From positions 1 to 34,063 of the forward strand of contig JAJZXE010000008.1 of the NCBI GenBank assembly GCA_021802505.1: 34,063 nt of DNA, in the 5' to 3' direction. The stretch comes from Nanobdellota archaeon (GTDB taxonomy: Archaea > Nanobdellota > Nanobdellia > Parvarchaeales > Parvarchaeaceae). The notes beneath the pieces were generated by a model. That model saw only the letters and a program-made list of their open reading frames with translations, was not told the origin of the DNA and searched no databases. Shown one piece after another: positions 17,205 to 23,701 of the stretch (the stretch's first letter is position 1; each line of letters starts with the position of its first letter). Position numbers and translations under genes: made by a program.

Positions 17205-17218
17205 TAAAGTATTTATAT
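17205..17218 (+). promoter_or_regulatory. BRE/TATA-type promoter of 17241 gene
   Basis: taaagtatttatat centred about 27 nt upstream of ATG 17241. Confidence 0.6.
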
Positions 17219-17240
17219 CTAAAGTAATCACTATTAAAGA

Positions 17241-18338
17241 ATGAAGAATTATATAAATAACGTTAAGAAACGCCTCGGTAAAAGTTCATTTGAAGGCCTG
17301 TGGGAGGGATTTGAAAACGCACTCAAAGATTCATTAAACTGCGGCAGTTATGAAAACGGCAGTCTGGAATGGTTAAAGGAAGTTGCTAAATATCATATAA
17401 ATGAAGACAGCGGATCAGAGTATTGGATTGACCGGGCGAAAGCAAATAATATAACCGCAGGGAAAATCGATGATGCGGACAGCTTAGACGGGCTATTGAA
17501 CCTGCTTGGAGATGCAGATACAGACCTGCTTAAACAGGAAACGGGATATAGGGATTTTTACATGCCTAAGGCTGCAAATATCCAGGACTTATTTAAGAGT
17601 TCGTCTTCGGGAACCACCGGACCAGCGAAAACAGTGTATCACTCCGCTGAATCTCTCACTCTATCGGCTGTAGACGAATACACAGGAATAAAAGCCCAGT
17701 TCCCAGCTGGAAAAATCGCAGGAAAAGTATTGTTAGCGACCGGTCCCAACGGAGCATATCAGAAGGAGCACGAGATCCTCGCAGACATGCTCAATATGGA
17801 TTACATAGGGAACGGTTTCGAAACCAAGGGATTAAAACTGCTCGGTAAGGAAGAGTTCGCCAGAGCGATATCACCGGTAATTAAAAATACGGTAGACGCA
17901 CTTTACAGGGAAGAGGTTGGTTTAATGCCGAACGCGATGGAAATGCTGGGTATCCTGCCAAAAGAATACCTGCAAAAAGTCGATGTACTCAAGTTATCCG
18001 GTACAACGATAACCCCGCAGGGAATAATAGATGCGGAAAAGAACTACAAAAATAAGATCATACCTATGTACGGCCACTACGCCGGAAAATCCTCTATCGG
18101 GTTTTTATCAGAAGACCTGCAGCAGATTGATTATTTCCCGGCTTACCCCGCAACGATAATCAAGATAAACGATAAAAATCAAACTGCAATTGGTTACGGT
18201 GATAGAGGCAGAATAAAACTGATCGTTGCAGAGCCGGAACTTCTTCTGATCAAAGACGAGGACTATGCCGGCAGGGCTAAACCAAAAAGATTCTTCAAAT
18301 CTGTAGATGGATTGTCAGATCCCGGAAGAGATCAGTAA
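17241..18338 (+). CDS. LuxE/PaaK-like adenylate-forming protein (ANL superfamily, short)
   Basis: FKSSSSGTTGPAKTVYHS phosphate-loop motif and LKLSGTTITPQGI...IIPMYGHYAGKSSIGF; 365 aa, ending shortly after a GDRGRIKL-like segment. Confidence 0.75.
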   Translation: MKNYINNVKKRLGKSSFEGLWEGFENALKDSLNCGSYENGSLEWLKEVAKYHINEDSGSEYWIDRAKANNITAGKIDDADSLDGLLNLLGDADTDLLKQETGYRDFYMPKAANIQDLFKSSSSGTTGPAKTVYHSAESLTLSAVDEYTGIKAQFPAGKIAGKVLLATGPNGAYQKEHEILADMLNMDYIGNGFETKGLKLLGKEEFARAISPVIKNTVDALYREEVGLMPNAMEMLGILPKEYLQKVDVLKLSGTTITPQGIIDAEKNYKNKIIPMYGHYAGKSSIGFLSEDLQQIDYFPAYPATIIKINDKNQTAIGYGDRGRIKLIVAEPELLLIKDEDYAGRAKPKRFFKSVDGLSDPGRDQ

Positions 18339-19681
18339 GCGCTTATACCGCGTTTATCGACTATTTTTGCGGATTTAAGGACCTTCGGGTCATAGAAGGG
18401 TATCTTGTCTTTTTCGGTCAATTCCAGCCGTAACAAACCCAATTTTTTCTCAAGGACGTATTTTATTTCCATCTCCTGCTCGGAAAGTTTGCTTATCAGG
18501 TATTCTAGCACTTTGTCTTTACTGCCTTCAAAGGCATTTTTGTAAAAGTAAAAGGTGAGTTTGTCCACCCCGTTTTCCCTTGTTAATTCTGCGTAACCTT
18601 CCCCAAGATTGAATCTCCTGGCAGTCGAGGCTATAACATTGTCTGCGATTATGTCATTTAACTTTGAAACAGAGAAATTTATTAATTTATTTGACCTTCC
18701 CAAAAATTCCAAATAAACGTAATCCTTGTCTATACCCAAAAATTTGACGTTTTCTTTGGTATTGTAATTTATCAAAGGCATATGGATTTTGTTCTTAAAG
18801 CACTTATTGGTTACAATTAAATCGCCGGACAAACCTTTTTTCTCATCATCAAGAGAGTAAATTAATTTGCCGTCCGACAGTATACCGAACTCATTGCCGT
18901 ATCTGCCCAACTTGAATACATAGGTATCTTTTAAAGTATCATCATTTAAGAGACTCTCCGGATAGAACTTGTAGCCCGTCAGCCTTTCAGTCGAAGCGAG
19001 AAAATTTATCAAACCCTTCATCGGCAGAAACTTGTGCAAAAGCCTGGATCTCTCAATATCGGACGGCTCGCCGCCGATGAGTGCATAAACTTCATTCTTC
19101 GATGCGATTTCCCTGAGTTTTCTGCGTCTTTCTTCGTCCAATCCGTATATCTGCCTAAAAAGAAGGGATGGGAAACCTATTAATAGGATTTTTTTATTCA
19201 GATTGGGATTTGCTCCCAGTATCTTGTCTGCATATACAAATAAGTCAAATATATTTTGGCCGGGACCTTGGTCTATTTCTATCGCATTTGAATGGGTGAT
19301 AGAAGAAGAAAGAACTGCGCCGCTTATTGCAGGCCTCGGAGCAGCGATGTTGAAGATTATCGATGGATCCTCGCCCAGAACCTCCTGGTAGATGAGATGG
19401 AAACCATATCCGAATAAATTAAGATCATCATACGTAGTCGGTATTATTTTAGGTTTGCCTGTAGAACCGGAAGTTAAAAACAGTGACAGATTAGCCTTAT
19501 CTTTAGGTATAAACTTATAGAAATTATCGTCCAAAAAATCCTCTCCGGTCAGTATCCTGCTGTTTTCAAGGAAAGAGATTATGACGTTTTTATTTTTAAA
19601 ATCTGCTAACTTATAGTTTTCGGAATAAAAAGCTATCTCCCTTGCCTTCTTCAACGTGTTTTCAATCGATGGTTTTTCCAT
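18332..19681 (-). CDS. PaaK/LuxE-like adenylate-forming enzyme (ANL superfamily)
   Basis: LSLFLTSGSTGKPKIIPTTYDDL P-loop motif and INFLASTERLTGY A5-like motif. ORF track start 19837; 19681 (MEKPSIENTLKKAREIA) starts 1 bp after the upstream gene's stop codon. Confidence 0.8.
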   Translation of the reverse strand: MEKPSIENTLKKAREIAFYSENYKLADFKNKNVIISFLENSRILTGEDFLDDNFYKFIPKDKANLSLFLTSGSTGKPKIIPTTYDDLNLFGYGFHLIYQEVLGEDPSIIFNIAAPRPAISGAVLSSSITHSNAIEIDQGPGQNIFDLFVYADKILGANPNLNKKILLIGFPSLLFRQIYGLDEERRRKLREIASKNEVYALIGGEPSDIERSRLLHKFLPMKGLINFLASTERLTGYKFYPESLLNDDTLKDTYVFKLGRYGNEFGILSDGKLIYSLDDEKKGLSGDLIVTNKCFKNKIHMPLINYNTKENVKFLGIDKDYVYLEFLGRSNKLINFSVSKLNDIIADNVIASTARRFNLGEGYAELTRENGVDKLTFYFYKNAFEGSKDKVLEYLISKLSEQEMEIKYVLEKKLGLLRLELTEKDKIPFYDPKVLKSAKIVDKRGISAY

Positions 19682-19682
19682 A

Positions 19683-20213
19683 TTACTCTGTAACTTTAGA
19701 TATAAATTTACATTCGCTGCTTCCGGCTGCTTTACAATATATTTCCTCTGTCGTGTGTTTTTTTCCGAATAAATTATCAAAAAAGGAAGATAAAACGCCG
19801 GCCAGAAAAAAGCAGACTGGTTCTTTTGCAGCGCCAAAAGTATTTAAGTATGATTCCGCGAAAGGAGAAACGGGTGTGGATGTTATTACAGAATCCTTTT
19901 CAAAAATAAAATTCCATTTTCCAAAACCGCTGGATAGTATAATATTAGATAAAAAGTCAAAGGTCTTTTTATTATCTTCATTAAATATCTTCTTGTAAGC
20001 TTGAACCAATGGCGTTACACTTGAATACCCTGCATCGTATAAATCTTTTTTTTTGCCATATTTCAATAACAGCCCTGCGACTGAAGAAAAGATACCCATA
20101 TTAAGCAAGATTCCGGGCCGGCCCATCAAAAGCAGCCTATTATCCTGAAATTTTACATTTTTAGTCAAAAACATTTCGTTCAAAAAATCCTGGGATGAAT
20201 CGTCATTTGACAT
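19683..20213 (-). CDS. V4R-domain (4-vinyl reductase-like, small-molecule-binding) protein
   Basis: LLLMGRPGILLNMGIFSSVAGLLLKYGKKKDLYDAGYSSV and the C-terminal motif TEEIYCKAAGSSECKFISK, matching the V4R pattern E..C.A.G...C.F. Confidence 0.78.
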   Translation of the reverse strand: MSNDDSSQDFLNEMFLTKNVKFQDNRLLLMGRPGILLNMGIFSSVAGLLLKYGKKKDLYDAGYSSVTPLVQAYKKIFNEDNKKTFDFLSNIILSSGFGKWNFIFEKDSVITSTPVSPFAESYLNTFGAAKEPVCFFLAGVLSSFFDNLFGKKHTTEEIYCKAAGSSECKFISKVTE

Positions 20214-20865
20214 ATATACCGCCTTTGTCTATCCTCATCGGTAACATTGACCTGTCATTGTTCGTCCTCCTCATCTTGATTATCTGCATGCTTCTGTCAA
20301 AATCTCCCCCTAATCCGGTATAAAACAATTTGATCACCGCATCTGATAAGTATTCACCGCTAAAATACATAATATCACTGTCGGAAATCTGCGGCTGCTC
20401 ATCCGTGACTATCGCCGTCACACTCAATTTCTTAAGCTCCGTGACCAGATCCAGCATGAATTTTCTAAATTTACCCTTATCGTCCATGTACATTGAAATG
20501 GCGGACAGAGAATCGATAACTACTCTTGAAACTTTGTTTTCCCTGATCAAGTCCAGTACCCCGAGATACTCAAAATTTATAGGTGAATTAAACGTTATAA
20601 TAAACTTTTTATCCTCCAGTAGTTTCCTAACGTTTTCAAAGCCTATGCTCTCCATGTCCAAGACGATATCTCTTTCCTGCTCTTCAAAGGAAACAAACAG
20701 ACACGTCTGTCCGTTCTTTAGACCCTCATAAAGAAATGACATTCCTATAAGAGACTTTCCGGAGCCCGGTCCCCCTATGATGCTGATTATGGAGCCTTCC
20801 TCAAAGCCGCCGTCTATCTTTGCATCCAGACCGTTTATCCCGCTTTTTATCCGTTTTATTGCCAT
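20203..20865 (-). CDS. KaiC-like RecA-family ATPase (single domain)
   Basis: GINGLDAKIDGGFEEGSIISIIGGPGSGKSLIGMSFLYEG (Walker A), LFVSFEEQERDI (EE catalytic pair), VSRVVIDSLSAISMY (Walker B). Confidence 0.93.
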   Translation of the reverse strand: MAIKRIKSGINGLDAKIDGGFEEGSIISIIGGPGSGKSLIGMSFLYEGLKNGQTCLFVSFEEQERDIVLDMESIGFENVRKLLEDKKFIITFNSPINFEYLGVLDLIRENKVSRVVIDSLSAISMYMDDKGKFRKFMLDLVTELKKLSVTAIVTDEQPQISDSDIMYFSGEYLSDAVIKLFYTGLGGDFDRSMQIIKMRRTNNDRSMLPMRIDKGGIYVK

Positions 20866-20950
20866 CGCTGACCTTTATATAGAATATATAGGTATACTCC
20901 TAATTTAAATAGTTTCTGACTTTATTGTAATTTTTGTAAATATTGTAAAT

Positions 20951-21892
20951 CTAAGGATTGCTTTCCTTGTTTTTTGTCTTTTTCTTTTCGTCTTGAGAAG
21001 CATTTTTATTATTGCTTTTATCGAAAAGTCCCCTTATGCCTTCCACACCCAAAGGAGTAGGAATACTGAAACCCTTGCTGTCAGTCGGAACAAAAACCAT
21101 TAAGTTCTTGCCGTTCAGGCTTATTTCATACATCATATTAAGGGAACGGAGCTGCATCGCGAACAGGTCTCTCTTGTATTTCTCGCTTGCCTCTATTATT
21201 TTATCCGCAGCCAGTGATTCGCTTTCCGCCAGTTTAACCCTTGCCTGTTTTTCCCTGTCCGCAACGGCCACCCTTGCCATTGCATCCTGCAGATCCGGAG
21301 GTATGCTTACGTCGCGGATCTCTACGGATATCGCCTCTATCCCCCAGTCTGTTATTCTTTCCTGTATGAGATTTTTCACGTCTTTTCCTATTACATCCCT
21401 GCCGGCCAGCATTTCGGACAGTTCCGTCTTTCCTATTATGTCACGCAATGCCGTCTGCGCCGCAAGCTGGACTGACTCTTTGTATATCTGAACGTTCAAA
21501 ACCGCACTTTCCGAATTAAGAACTTTCCAGAAGAGCAGTGCATCTACATCCACCGGAACATTGTCTTTTGTCAGCGTCTTCTCTGCCTTAAAGATGGTAT
21601 TTATAACACGTAAATCGAGAGTTACCGGCGTAGTCTGTATAAAAGGAATGATTATGTGTATGCCCGGCCCCATTATCCCGACGTACTTTCCAAATGACAG
21701 AACCGCTTTTCTGTTCCATTGGTTTACTATTCTTATCGCTGCGGCCAGAAACACCAGAAAAAGGAATATTCCTGTGATTAGACCCGCATAGACATTCACG
21801 ATTGAAACGAGATAACCGATTACCGCAGGTATGAAGATCACAAACAAGATGCCCAATGCATCTCCGTTAAAAATTTTCATCTGCACTGACAT
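20951..21892 (-). CDS. SPFH/stomatin-like membrane protein
   Basis: N-terminal TM hairpin; SFGKYVGIMGPGIHIIIPFIQTTPVTLDLRV, DNVPVDVDALLFWKV, LRDIIGKTELSEMLAGRD, WGIEAISVEIRDVSIPPDLQDAMARVAVADREKQARV. Confidence 0.95.
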   Translation of the reverse strand: MSVQMKIFNGDALGILFVIFIPAVIGYLVSIVNVYAGLITGIFLFLVFLAAAIRIVNQWNRKAVLSFGKYVGIMGPGIHIIIPFIQTTPVTLDLRVINTIFKAEKTLTKDNVPVDVDALLFWKVLNSESAVLNVQIYKESVQLAAQTALRDIIGKTELSEMLAGRDVIGKDVKNLIQERITDWGIEAISVEIRDVSIPPDLQDAMARVAVADREKQARVKLAESESLAADKIIEASEKYKRDLFAMQLRSLNMMYEISLNGKNLMVFVPTDSKGFSIPTPLGVEGIRGLFDKSNNKNASQDEKKKTKNKESNP

Positions 21893-22257: not shown

Positions 22258-22989
22258 ATGGGAAAAATAATCAACGCAGACGAACTACCGGATTTTTTTG
22301 ATGTAGCAACCCTCGGGAGGGTGTTAGATGGCAGGAGCAAAAGGTCGATAAGATATTCGCTTGGTAAATTGTTGTCCGAACACAAGCTGTTTAAGGTTGA
22401 CAGGCATTTTTACACTAAATCCGGGGATCCTTTTTTTGTCGCGACACTGGCATGCAACGGTTACATCGGTTTATCCTCCGCGCTTTTTATTCTCGGTTTA
22501 AAGGAGGAAATGGATGCAGACGTGTACGTGTGCACCAACACCTACAAACGGCCATTTAGGTTTTTGGACAAGAAAATAACTCCGATAAACGTGTCAAACT
22601 TTTTTTGGGGAACGACCATAGTTGAAAAGGACGGCAGAGAGATACTCGTCTCCACGCTTCCCAAAACCATATTTGACATGTTGTACAGGGTTAAGTACGC
22701 GGATTTCCAATACCTATATAGAGCTCTAGGATATGATACAATGAAGAAGAAGGATTGGGAGGAATTACTGGGGTTTATAACGGACTCCAATACCACAGTG
22801 ATAAGAAGGACCGGCCACCTCCTCGACGGGATCGCTCCGGGGTGGTTTGTGTCCAAATTGAAAGAGATGAGTGACAAAGCGAAGGGGGTTTCGTTCTTTT
22901 ACGGCCATGTTTTTGATAATTATGATAGCAACTGGAAGATTTTTGACGGACTCAACGTGACAAGATGGAAAAATGGAATTAGATTTTGA
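22258..22989 (+). CDS. abiEi: AbiEi-type antitoxin (winged-helix transcriptional regulator)
   Basis: N-terminal helix-turn-helix-like region (DVATLGRVLDGRSKRSIRYSLGKLLSEHKLFKV) and position directly upstream of and overlapping an AbiEii nucleotidyltransferase gene. Confidence 0.75.
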   Translation: MGKIINADELPDFFDVATLGRVLDGRSKRSIRYSLGKLLSEHKLFKVDRHFYTKSGDPFFVATLACNGYIGLSSALFILGLKEEMDADVYVCTNTYKRPFRFLDKKITPINVSNFFWGTTIVEKDGREILVSTLPKTIFDMLYRVKYADFQYLYRALGYDTMKKKDWEELLGFITDSNTTVIRRTGHLLDGIAPGWFVSKLKEMSDKAKGVSFFYGHVFDNYDSNWKIFDGLNVTRWKNGIRF

Positions 22990-23701
22990 GGCGATAGCGT
23001 CCCGCACCGGTATCTCCACTCCGAGAATAAAGGAGAATTTAAAGACTTATGACACAATGATGGAGCTGTTCCCAAGGCTAGAAGCAGAAAAACAGCTGGT
23101 CGGCCTCTACGGCGGCACTGCCATGAACAAAATATATTACGGCAAGGACCAACGGCTATCCTACGATATAGACCTCTTTTGTTACAATTACCCCGATACT
23201 GTCAAAGCGATCGAAAAAATGGGCGGCGTTATGGTAATCGCCCGCTATCATGAGAGGGGTCGCTCAAAAATGAGGTTAAAAGGGATAAATATTGACCTTT
23301 GGGCGGTGCCGAAAAAAACGGATGAAATGCCATCCAAAAAGATACTCAAAGATCTCTTATACTATTACGGATACCTTATACCCCCATTGGCGGTACCGTC
23401 ATACAGTTTGGAATATCTCCTGGCGAGTAAAACGATGGCGATGGCGGACAGAAATATGCTCAAAGATATATACGATCTATGGCGCGGTTTGAAACTCGCC
23501 GTCGATTTGGAAAAATACAAATTTTATATAAAGAAAATAGGGAAAGAACTTGACATCGACGTCTTTTCTTACATACCCGCCCAAATCGCGTTTATGCTCA
23601 AGAACACCAAATACTACGAAAAGGAAAGCATCGACACCACTTATCAGCCGCCAGTTACACTGATGTTAAACGAAGTAAAGGCTGTTTTAGAGTCTATCTG
23701 A
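22973..23701 (+). CDS. abiEii: AbiEii-type nucleotidyltransferase toxin
   Basis: LVGLYGGTAMNKIYYGKDQRLSYDIDLFCY (GGT..DID) and later INIDLWAVPKK acidic motif. Overlaps the abiEi ORF by 17 bp. Confidence 0.85.
   Translation: MELDFEAIASRTGISTPRIKENLKTYDTMMELFPRLEAEKQLVGLYGGTAMNKIYYGKDQRLSYDIDLFCYNYPDTVKAIEKMGGVMVIARYHERGRSKMRLKGINIDLWAVPKKTDEMPSKKILKDLLYYYGYLIPPLAVPSYSLEYLLASKTMAMADRNMLKDIYDLWRGLKLAVDLEKYKFYIKKIGKELDIDVFSYIPAQIAFMLKNTKYYEKESIDTTYQPPVTLMLNEVKAVLESI

Follow-up and report, generated by a model that had tools for sequence, protein, structure and literature searches.

The closest described relatives of the V4R sensor considered here are the XylR-type regulators DmpR, MopR and PoxR, in which a V4R domain bearing a Cys-Glu-Cys-Cys zinc site shares one polypeptide chain with an AAA+ ATPase and a DNA-binding domain. 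In DmpR, phenol is bound by the V4R domain and is required for the linked AAA+ domain to hydrolyse ATP (PMC7264223); a His/Trp pair in MopR and DmpR anchors the phenol hydroxyl (PMC7264223, PMC10715001). The DNA analysed here (hereafter the window; 34,063 nucleotides) corresponds to contig C27 in the 763-kb genome assembly (84% complete) of a Nanobdellota archaeon. It encodes a V4R protein that resembles these regulators in its zinc site and in its association with a P-loop ATPase; unlike theirs, however, this V4R is a free protein whose gene lies next to that of a KaiC-like ATPase, in a four-gene cassette that also encodes two proteins of the adenylate-forming (ANL) superfamily, here called ANL1 and ANL2.

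KaiC-like ATPases were reportedly proposed by Makarova, Galperin and Koonin in 2017 to serve as signal-transduction hubs in archaea. Set against that proposal, the cassette is similar in its single-domain KaiC, intact ATPase motifs and linked sensor gene, but differs in having a V4R input and adenylate-forming proteins in the operon. ANL1 shares its core motifs and lid with the PaaK phenylacetate-CoA ligases, the PaaK-like AMP-ligases NatL2 and ClxA, and the GH3 acyl-amido synthetases, although it is very divergent from them. ANL2 is comparable to EhpF, from D-alanylgriseoluteic acid (phenazine) biosynthesis, in its length and its lidless ANL N-domain; the two are only about 15% identical, and the cassette has neither phenazine genes nor a dedicated aldehyde-dehydrogenase partner. 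The LuxE/LuxC system shares the logic of carboxylate adenylation, and LuxE/LuxC-like genes occur at other nanoarchaeal V4R loci, but no LuxC partner tracks the cassette. In the literature searched, with partial coverage, for KaiC with V4R, V4R with LuxE and KaiC with AMP-binding proteins in DPANN archaea, the set was not described, and the Parvarchaeota genome papers searched made no mention of KaiC; the combination looks undescribed, with each component drawn from a known superfamily.

Conservation of the four-gene cassette

A first-pass annotation of the window had proposed that the KaiC, V4R, ANL1 and ANL2 genes form one module. All four open reading frames (ORFs) were confirmed at the positions it gave (Table 1), as were the 11-bp overlap of KaiC with V4R, the 1-bp gap between V4R and ANL1, and the 7-bp overlap of ANL1 with ANL2. 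Across a sample of 32 genomes of the order, V4R and ANL1 were found in the same 13 genomes, always together (Fisher p 3e-9 if the genomes were independent, which they are not), while ANL2 was found in 11 and a cassette-type KaiC in 15. In G002, G020, G027 and G030, pieces were missing at contig ends that fall within the cassette or adjoin it. Only G013, in an assembly 66% complete, had KaiC-V4R-ANL1 with no ANL2 seen; a truncated ORF that follows its ANL1 at the contig end was considered as an ANL2 remnant and rejected, as it is not ANL2-like.

Ten close genomes have the whole region syntenic and hence are not independent evidence for a module. The core alone was kept, between other flanks, in four further contexts (G005, G013, G002, and G001 with G003); G001 and G003 have the order ANL2-KaiC-V4R-ANL1, with all genes co-directional in one operon. 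In the two genomes that made up the sample of another order, G043 and G053, V4R-ANL1 was kept with an overlapping convergent ANL2, and profile comparison confirmed the kinship of the remote ANL1 (hhalign, E 7.7e-18) and the remote ANL2 (E 5.9e-21). Apart from these, no ANL2 was found outside the order, either in 378 genomes of the class or in 371 of the phylum. When named contigs were searched, the ANL2 profile gave five matches and a V4R-only search gave none; the named relatives that share the cassette are metagenome-assembled genomes of Candidatus Parvarchaeota and 'Nanoarchaeota', which places the window in the Parvarchaeota group of DPANN archaea. Given this conservation and the several flanking contexts, the arrangement of KaiC, V4R, ANL1 and ANL2 is beyond chance. 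Lack of conservation in relatives, which would have spoken against a module, was looked for; instead the neighbourhood is kept in 13-15 of the 32 genomes and with several other flanks, so that the one-module proposal stands.

Between G005 and the window genome, a housekeeping aldehyde dehydrogenase is 86% identical, whereas the cassette proteins are far more divergent (KaiC 60%, ANL2 45%, ANL1 36%, V4R 32%), which places the G005 cassette about as far from that of the window as the cassettes of another genus. This divergence, together with a different location, suggests that the G005 cassette was replaced or horizontally transferred, a suggestion resting on one proxy protein; the aldehyde-dehydrogenase tree is a rough species proxy in which the G013 row is a wrong or very distant paralogue. 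Extra tandem aldehyde dehydrogenases are present in G006, G009, G012, G013, G016 and G017, which are mostly cassette-free (G013 has both).

The V4R protein and the KaiC-like ATPase

The V4R protein matched PF02830 with 48.1 bits against a cut-off of 31 (E 1.2e-12), in agreement with its first identification; V4R was the only domain matched, with no fused AAA+ ATPase or DNA-binding domain. In profile comparison with MopR (5kbe; E 6e-8), residues C134, E157, C160 and C168 aligned with the MopR zinc ligands C155, E178, C181 and C189, and all four residues were invariant in 13 of 13 cassette sequences. Elsewhere in the window genome, a 353-aa frame (G000:C16:11986-12657; L002, L003) contains two weak V4R-like stretches, and frames resembling it, about 345-390 aa long, are present in several relatives.

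The identification of the KaiC-like ATPase was likewise upheld (PF06745, 160.8 bits against 26.6, E 4.4e-47). Its Walker A motif (GGPGSGKS), E61/E62 and Walker B D118 were invariant or nearly so across 13 sequences. It consists of one domain, not the two tandem KaiC domains of the cyanobacterial clock protein, and the neighbouring genes examined include neither KaiA nor KaiB, a search that did not extend to the remainder of the genome. The KaiCs of the cassettes group in a single clade that excludes the other KaiCs sampled from the order (100/99). A phage origin or defence system was considered for the cassette and rejected: no viral contig encodes a relative of ANL2, matches of KaiC in PHROGs were to generic ATPases, with one weak match for V4R, and PADLOC gave only generic ATPase-type matches for KaiC.

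When loci outside the order were chosen by V4R alone, 10 of the 19 V4R ORFs had a KaiC gene no more than 1 kb away, mostly in the same direction; pairing of V4R with KaiC is general in this archaeal class. Most of these other V4R-paired KaiCs and the cassette KaiCs fall in different clades, so that a single ancient KaiC-V4R pair was rejected and the pairing seems to recur.

Two divergent proteins of the adenylate-forming superfamily

Both ANL families are very divergent, and both proteins fell below all Pfam and NCBIfam cut-offs; in Pfam, ANL1 gave sub-threshold matches only (GH3, 0.0011; AMP-binding, 0.019) and ANL2 gave no match. The two were therefore tested further. The best profile match of ANL1 was PaaK2 (2y4o; E 1.5e-5), with GH3/JAR1 also matched, and its remote homologues are clearly PaaK-like (E 5.9e-51). 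The P-loop, E232, D/E310, R329 and K436 are conserved, and the residues of motifs A3, A5, A7, A8 and A10 are kept in 12 of 12 sequences across about 30% identity, with Glu replacing Asp at the A7 position in some; this retention argues for selection on catalysis. The structural model of ANL1 itself was poor (predicted local distance difference test, pLDDT, 53) and unusable on its own; PaaK-family ligases were among its fold matches. With homology spanning both the N-domain and the lid, and with the core motifs intact, ANL1 is predicted to be a PaaK-like ligase.

For ANL2, an AlphaFold model of moderate confidence was obtained (pLDDT 67, predicted template modelling score 0.72; residues 300-365 unreliable), and its five best matches in the PDB were all EhpF (Foldseek to 3hgu, E 1.3e-11). 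EhpF was also the best match in the profile search (E 1.9e-4), and the remote ANL2 matched it directly (E 4.4e-6). The P-loop SSGTTGPAK is kept at residues 122-130 and D341 is conserved. Most ANL enzymes carry a Glu in motif A5; ANL2 has YGHYAG at this place, without the Glu. Like EhpF, it stops after the N-domain and thus has no lid and no A10 Lys. As EhpF is closest to it in both fold and profile, ANL2 is classed from its predicted fold and profile as an EhpF-like lidless ANL protein.

The assignment of ANL1 and ANL2 to the adenylate-forming superfamily stands because profiles, remote homologues and predicted fold agree, even though family cut-offs were not reached. The first-pass annotation had called ANL1 'PaaK/LuxE-like' and ANL2 'LuxE-like': the adenylate-forming folds hold, but the LuxE label does not, as neither protein matched LuxE (PF04443) at E 1, and ANL1 is PaaK/GH3-like and ANL2 EhpF-like. 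A LuxE identity was consequently rejected. The same annotation had judged that no lux, polyketide synthase or non-ribosomal peptide synthetase pathway explains the locus, and this was sustained; the cassette contains no LuxC. Its interpretation as a whole was upheld in part.

V4R loci elsewhere in the class

V4R-KaiC pairs occur in families without ANL genes (L152, L153, L154, L156, L157, L162, L163). At some loci outside the order the arrangement is V4R-KaiC-V4R, and at L162 and L163 the pair adjoins PAS/HAMP proteins. At L151, L155 and L158, V4R is found with an AMP-binding or LuxE-like gene and a LuxC/aldehyde-dehydrogenase gene, accompanied by FIST in two of the three, and L154 combines V4R, CBS, KaiC, FIST and aldehyde dehydrogenase. 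These clusters of unrelated nanoarchaeal families (L155:7424-13751, L158:3372-7784, L151:7775-13068, L154:7821-13715), which at L155 and L151 include a PanE- or Ldh-like protein with a receiver-like domain, are possible acid-to-aldehyde signalling or metabolic operons. In this class, V4R is thus associated with KaiC on the one hand and with the activation or reduction of carboxylates on the other; both themes come together in the cassette of the window.

A conserved, winged-helix-looking protein of 80-100 aa (35-54% identity) is often encoded directly 5' of V4R or KaiC (L147:3412-3711, L149:2733-3005, L152:8943-9224, L160:11895-12266, L158:2618-2866); the L147 copy had no Pfam match, and the protein is a possible transcriptional output. 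Another conserved protein, of about 155 aa (37-53% identity), is encoded near V4R at four loci (L150:4896-5381, L151:8281-8748, L154:10451-10945, L158:2868-3332), and no convincing Pfam family was found for the three copies scanned.

Putative promoters and flanking genes

Inspection by eye of the region upstream of KaiC revealed A+T-rich sequence with TTTAAATTA and TATATA-like stretches, and TATTTATATC was seen about 27 nt 5' of the ANL2 ATG, a spacing that would be expected of a leaderless archaeal transcript. A sigma-70 promoter scan, a model not apt for archaea, performed no better than on shuffled sequences. The SPFH/Band 7 gene that adjoins KaiC upstream on the same strand is retained in the close clade and is not beside the cassette in the other contexts. 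Just past it lies an AbiEi/AbiEii pair, which is missing at this site in syntenic relatives and is therefore probably a recent insertion.

Table 1. Features of the cassette and its flanks (window positions)
Feature	Position	Strand	Basis
ANL2, EhpF-like lidless protein of adenylate-forming fold, 365 aa	17241..18338	+	Foldseek, profile, remote homologue, conservation
ANL1, predicted PaaK/GH3-like adenylate-forming ligase with C-terminal lid, 449 aa from ATG	18332..19681	-	profile, remote homologues, residues
V4R sensor-fold protein, 176 aa	19683..20213	-	Pfam, profile against MopR, residue invariance
Single-domain KaiC-like ATPase, 220 aa	20203..20865	-	Pfam, motifs, clade
Putative promoter region of the KaiC-V4R-ANL1 operon	20866..20950	-	sequence inspected by eye
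Putative ANL2 promoter	17205..17240	+	sequence inspected by eye
SPFH/Band 7 gene	20951-21892	-	
AbiEi/AbiEii type IV toxin-antitoxin pair	22258-23701		

Discussion

We tentatively propose, with somewhat less than even confidence, that the cassette is a carboxylate 'activate and sense' module in which a V4R sensor gates the KaiC ATPase. ANL1, with its complete active site and lid, would convert a carboxylic acid to an acyl-adenylate and hand the acyl group to coenzyme A or another nucleophile; ANL2 would make or hold a second acyl-adenylate, or act jointly with ANL1 on one shared substrate. The zinc-site V4R protein would bind a hydrophobic, perhaps aromatic, acid or the product of ANL1/ANL2, and its occupancy would switch the KaiC ATPase encoded by the adjacent gene, as in DmpR; KaiC would then pass this state on to the cell. 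The proposal is supported by the joint presence of V4R and ANL1 in 13 genomes, the co-directional operon of G001 and G003, the remote V4R-ANL1-ANL2 version, the PaaK-like and EhpF-like assignments, the zinc site aligned with that of MopR, the proximity of KaiC to 10 of the 19 V4R ORFs, and the precedent of DmpR. We infer from sequence the substrate class, the coupling of V4R to KaiC, the division of labour between ANL1 and ANL2, and the output; the matches to PaaK, NatL2, ClxA, GH3, EhpF and MopR point towards an aromatic or bulky hydrophobic acid, which is a lean, not a result.

Several observations weigh against this proposal. The phenol-anchoring His/Trp pair of MopR and DmpR has no conserved counterpart in the cassette V4R alignment, so the ligand probably differs; with neither a lid nor the usual Glu in A5, ANL2 may be an incomplete enzyme; in G005, ANL1 separates KaiC from V4R, and a different contig carries ANL2 at its end; and in G053 no KaiC adjoins V4R, a small winged helix-turn-helix-like gene being there instead, which indicates that KaiC is not obligatory in the remote version. 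That last arrangement also suits an enzyme complex in which V4R carries a substrate or intermediate, a hydrophobic acid, from one ANL protein to the other, with KaiC serving as ATP-driven regulator or scaffold. The 1-bp gap between V4R and ANL1 with ANL2 convergent, the strong correlation of V4R and ANL1 pairwise divergence (r 0.97), and the link of V4R to bacteriochlorophyll synthesis through a match to BchJ (E 5.7e-4) fit such a complex as well; but many loci pair V4R with KaiC alone, without ANL genes, and the best solved relatives of the V4R protein, such as MopR, are sensors, and we consider the complex unlikely, if a serious contender.

The shortcomings of ANL2 and the great divergence of both ANL families below curated cut-offs could also mean that V4R and KaiC are the working pair, with the ANL proteins altered into ATP- or acyl-binding sensors or adaptors for adenylate or acid levels. 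This we regard as improbable, since the P-loop, A5 Glu, A7 acid, A8 Arg and A10 Lys of ANL1 persist in every sequence at about 30% identity and the remote ANL1s are ordinary PaaK-like proteins. A reductive acid-to-aldehyde route of the LuxE/LuxC or EhpF/EhpG type, with its reductase gene elsewhere in the genome, would accord with the EhpF-like character of ANL2, as ehpF neighbours the aldehyde-dehydrogenase gene ehpG (PMC11278526), and with the V4R loci of other nanoarchaeal families that carry AMP-binding/LuxE-like and LuxC/aldehyde-dehydrogenase genes. The window genome, however, has a single aldehyde dehydrogenase, and virtually every genome of the order has an enzyme of this kind, whether or not it carries the cassette, as expected of a housekeeping enzyme; a dedicated reductase in the Parvarchaeota version is not supported, a lux- or Ehp-type reductive pathway was rejected for the cassette, and a more distant reductase seems slightly more doubtful still than the sensor-only interpretation. 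That the genes are chance neighbours held by general synteny of close genomes is very improbable: the nearest clade is wholly syntenic in the region and so proves little, but the core persists between four other sets of flanks, including two genomes with a different gene order, and the distant group keeps three of the four genes.

Returning to the activate-and-sense module, a bolder and doubtful extension would make it a 'split DmpR', in which a free zinc-V4R gates KaiC alongside a two-part PaaK-like/EhpF-like adenylating machine; the module would then form a single branch of a broader nanoarchaeal V4R network, with LuxE/LuxC-like and FIST proteins making or sensing acyl or aldehyde signals, possibly between DPANN archaea and their hosts. 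Few inputs are known for the KaiC ATPases proposed as major signalling hubs of archaea, and the recurring V4R-KaiC pairing is a concrete candidate for a ligand input, to which the cassette adds enzymes that may make or consume the V4R ligand. The archaea that carry it are tiny and acid-loving, with genomes of about 0.4-0.9 Mb and little spare metabolism, and in such an organism a four-gene unit devoted to an acid needs explaining.

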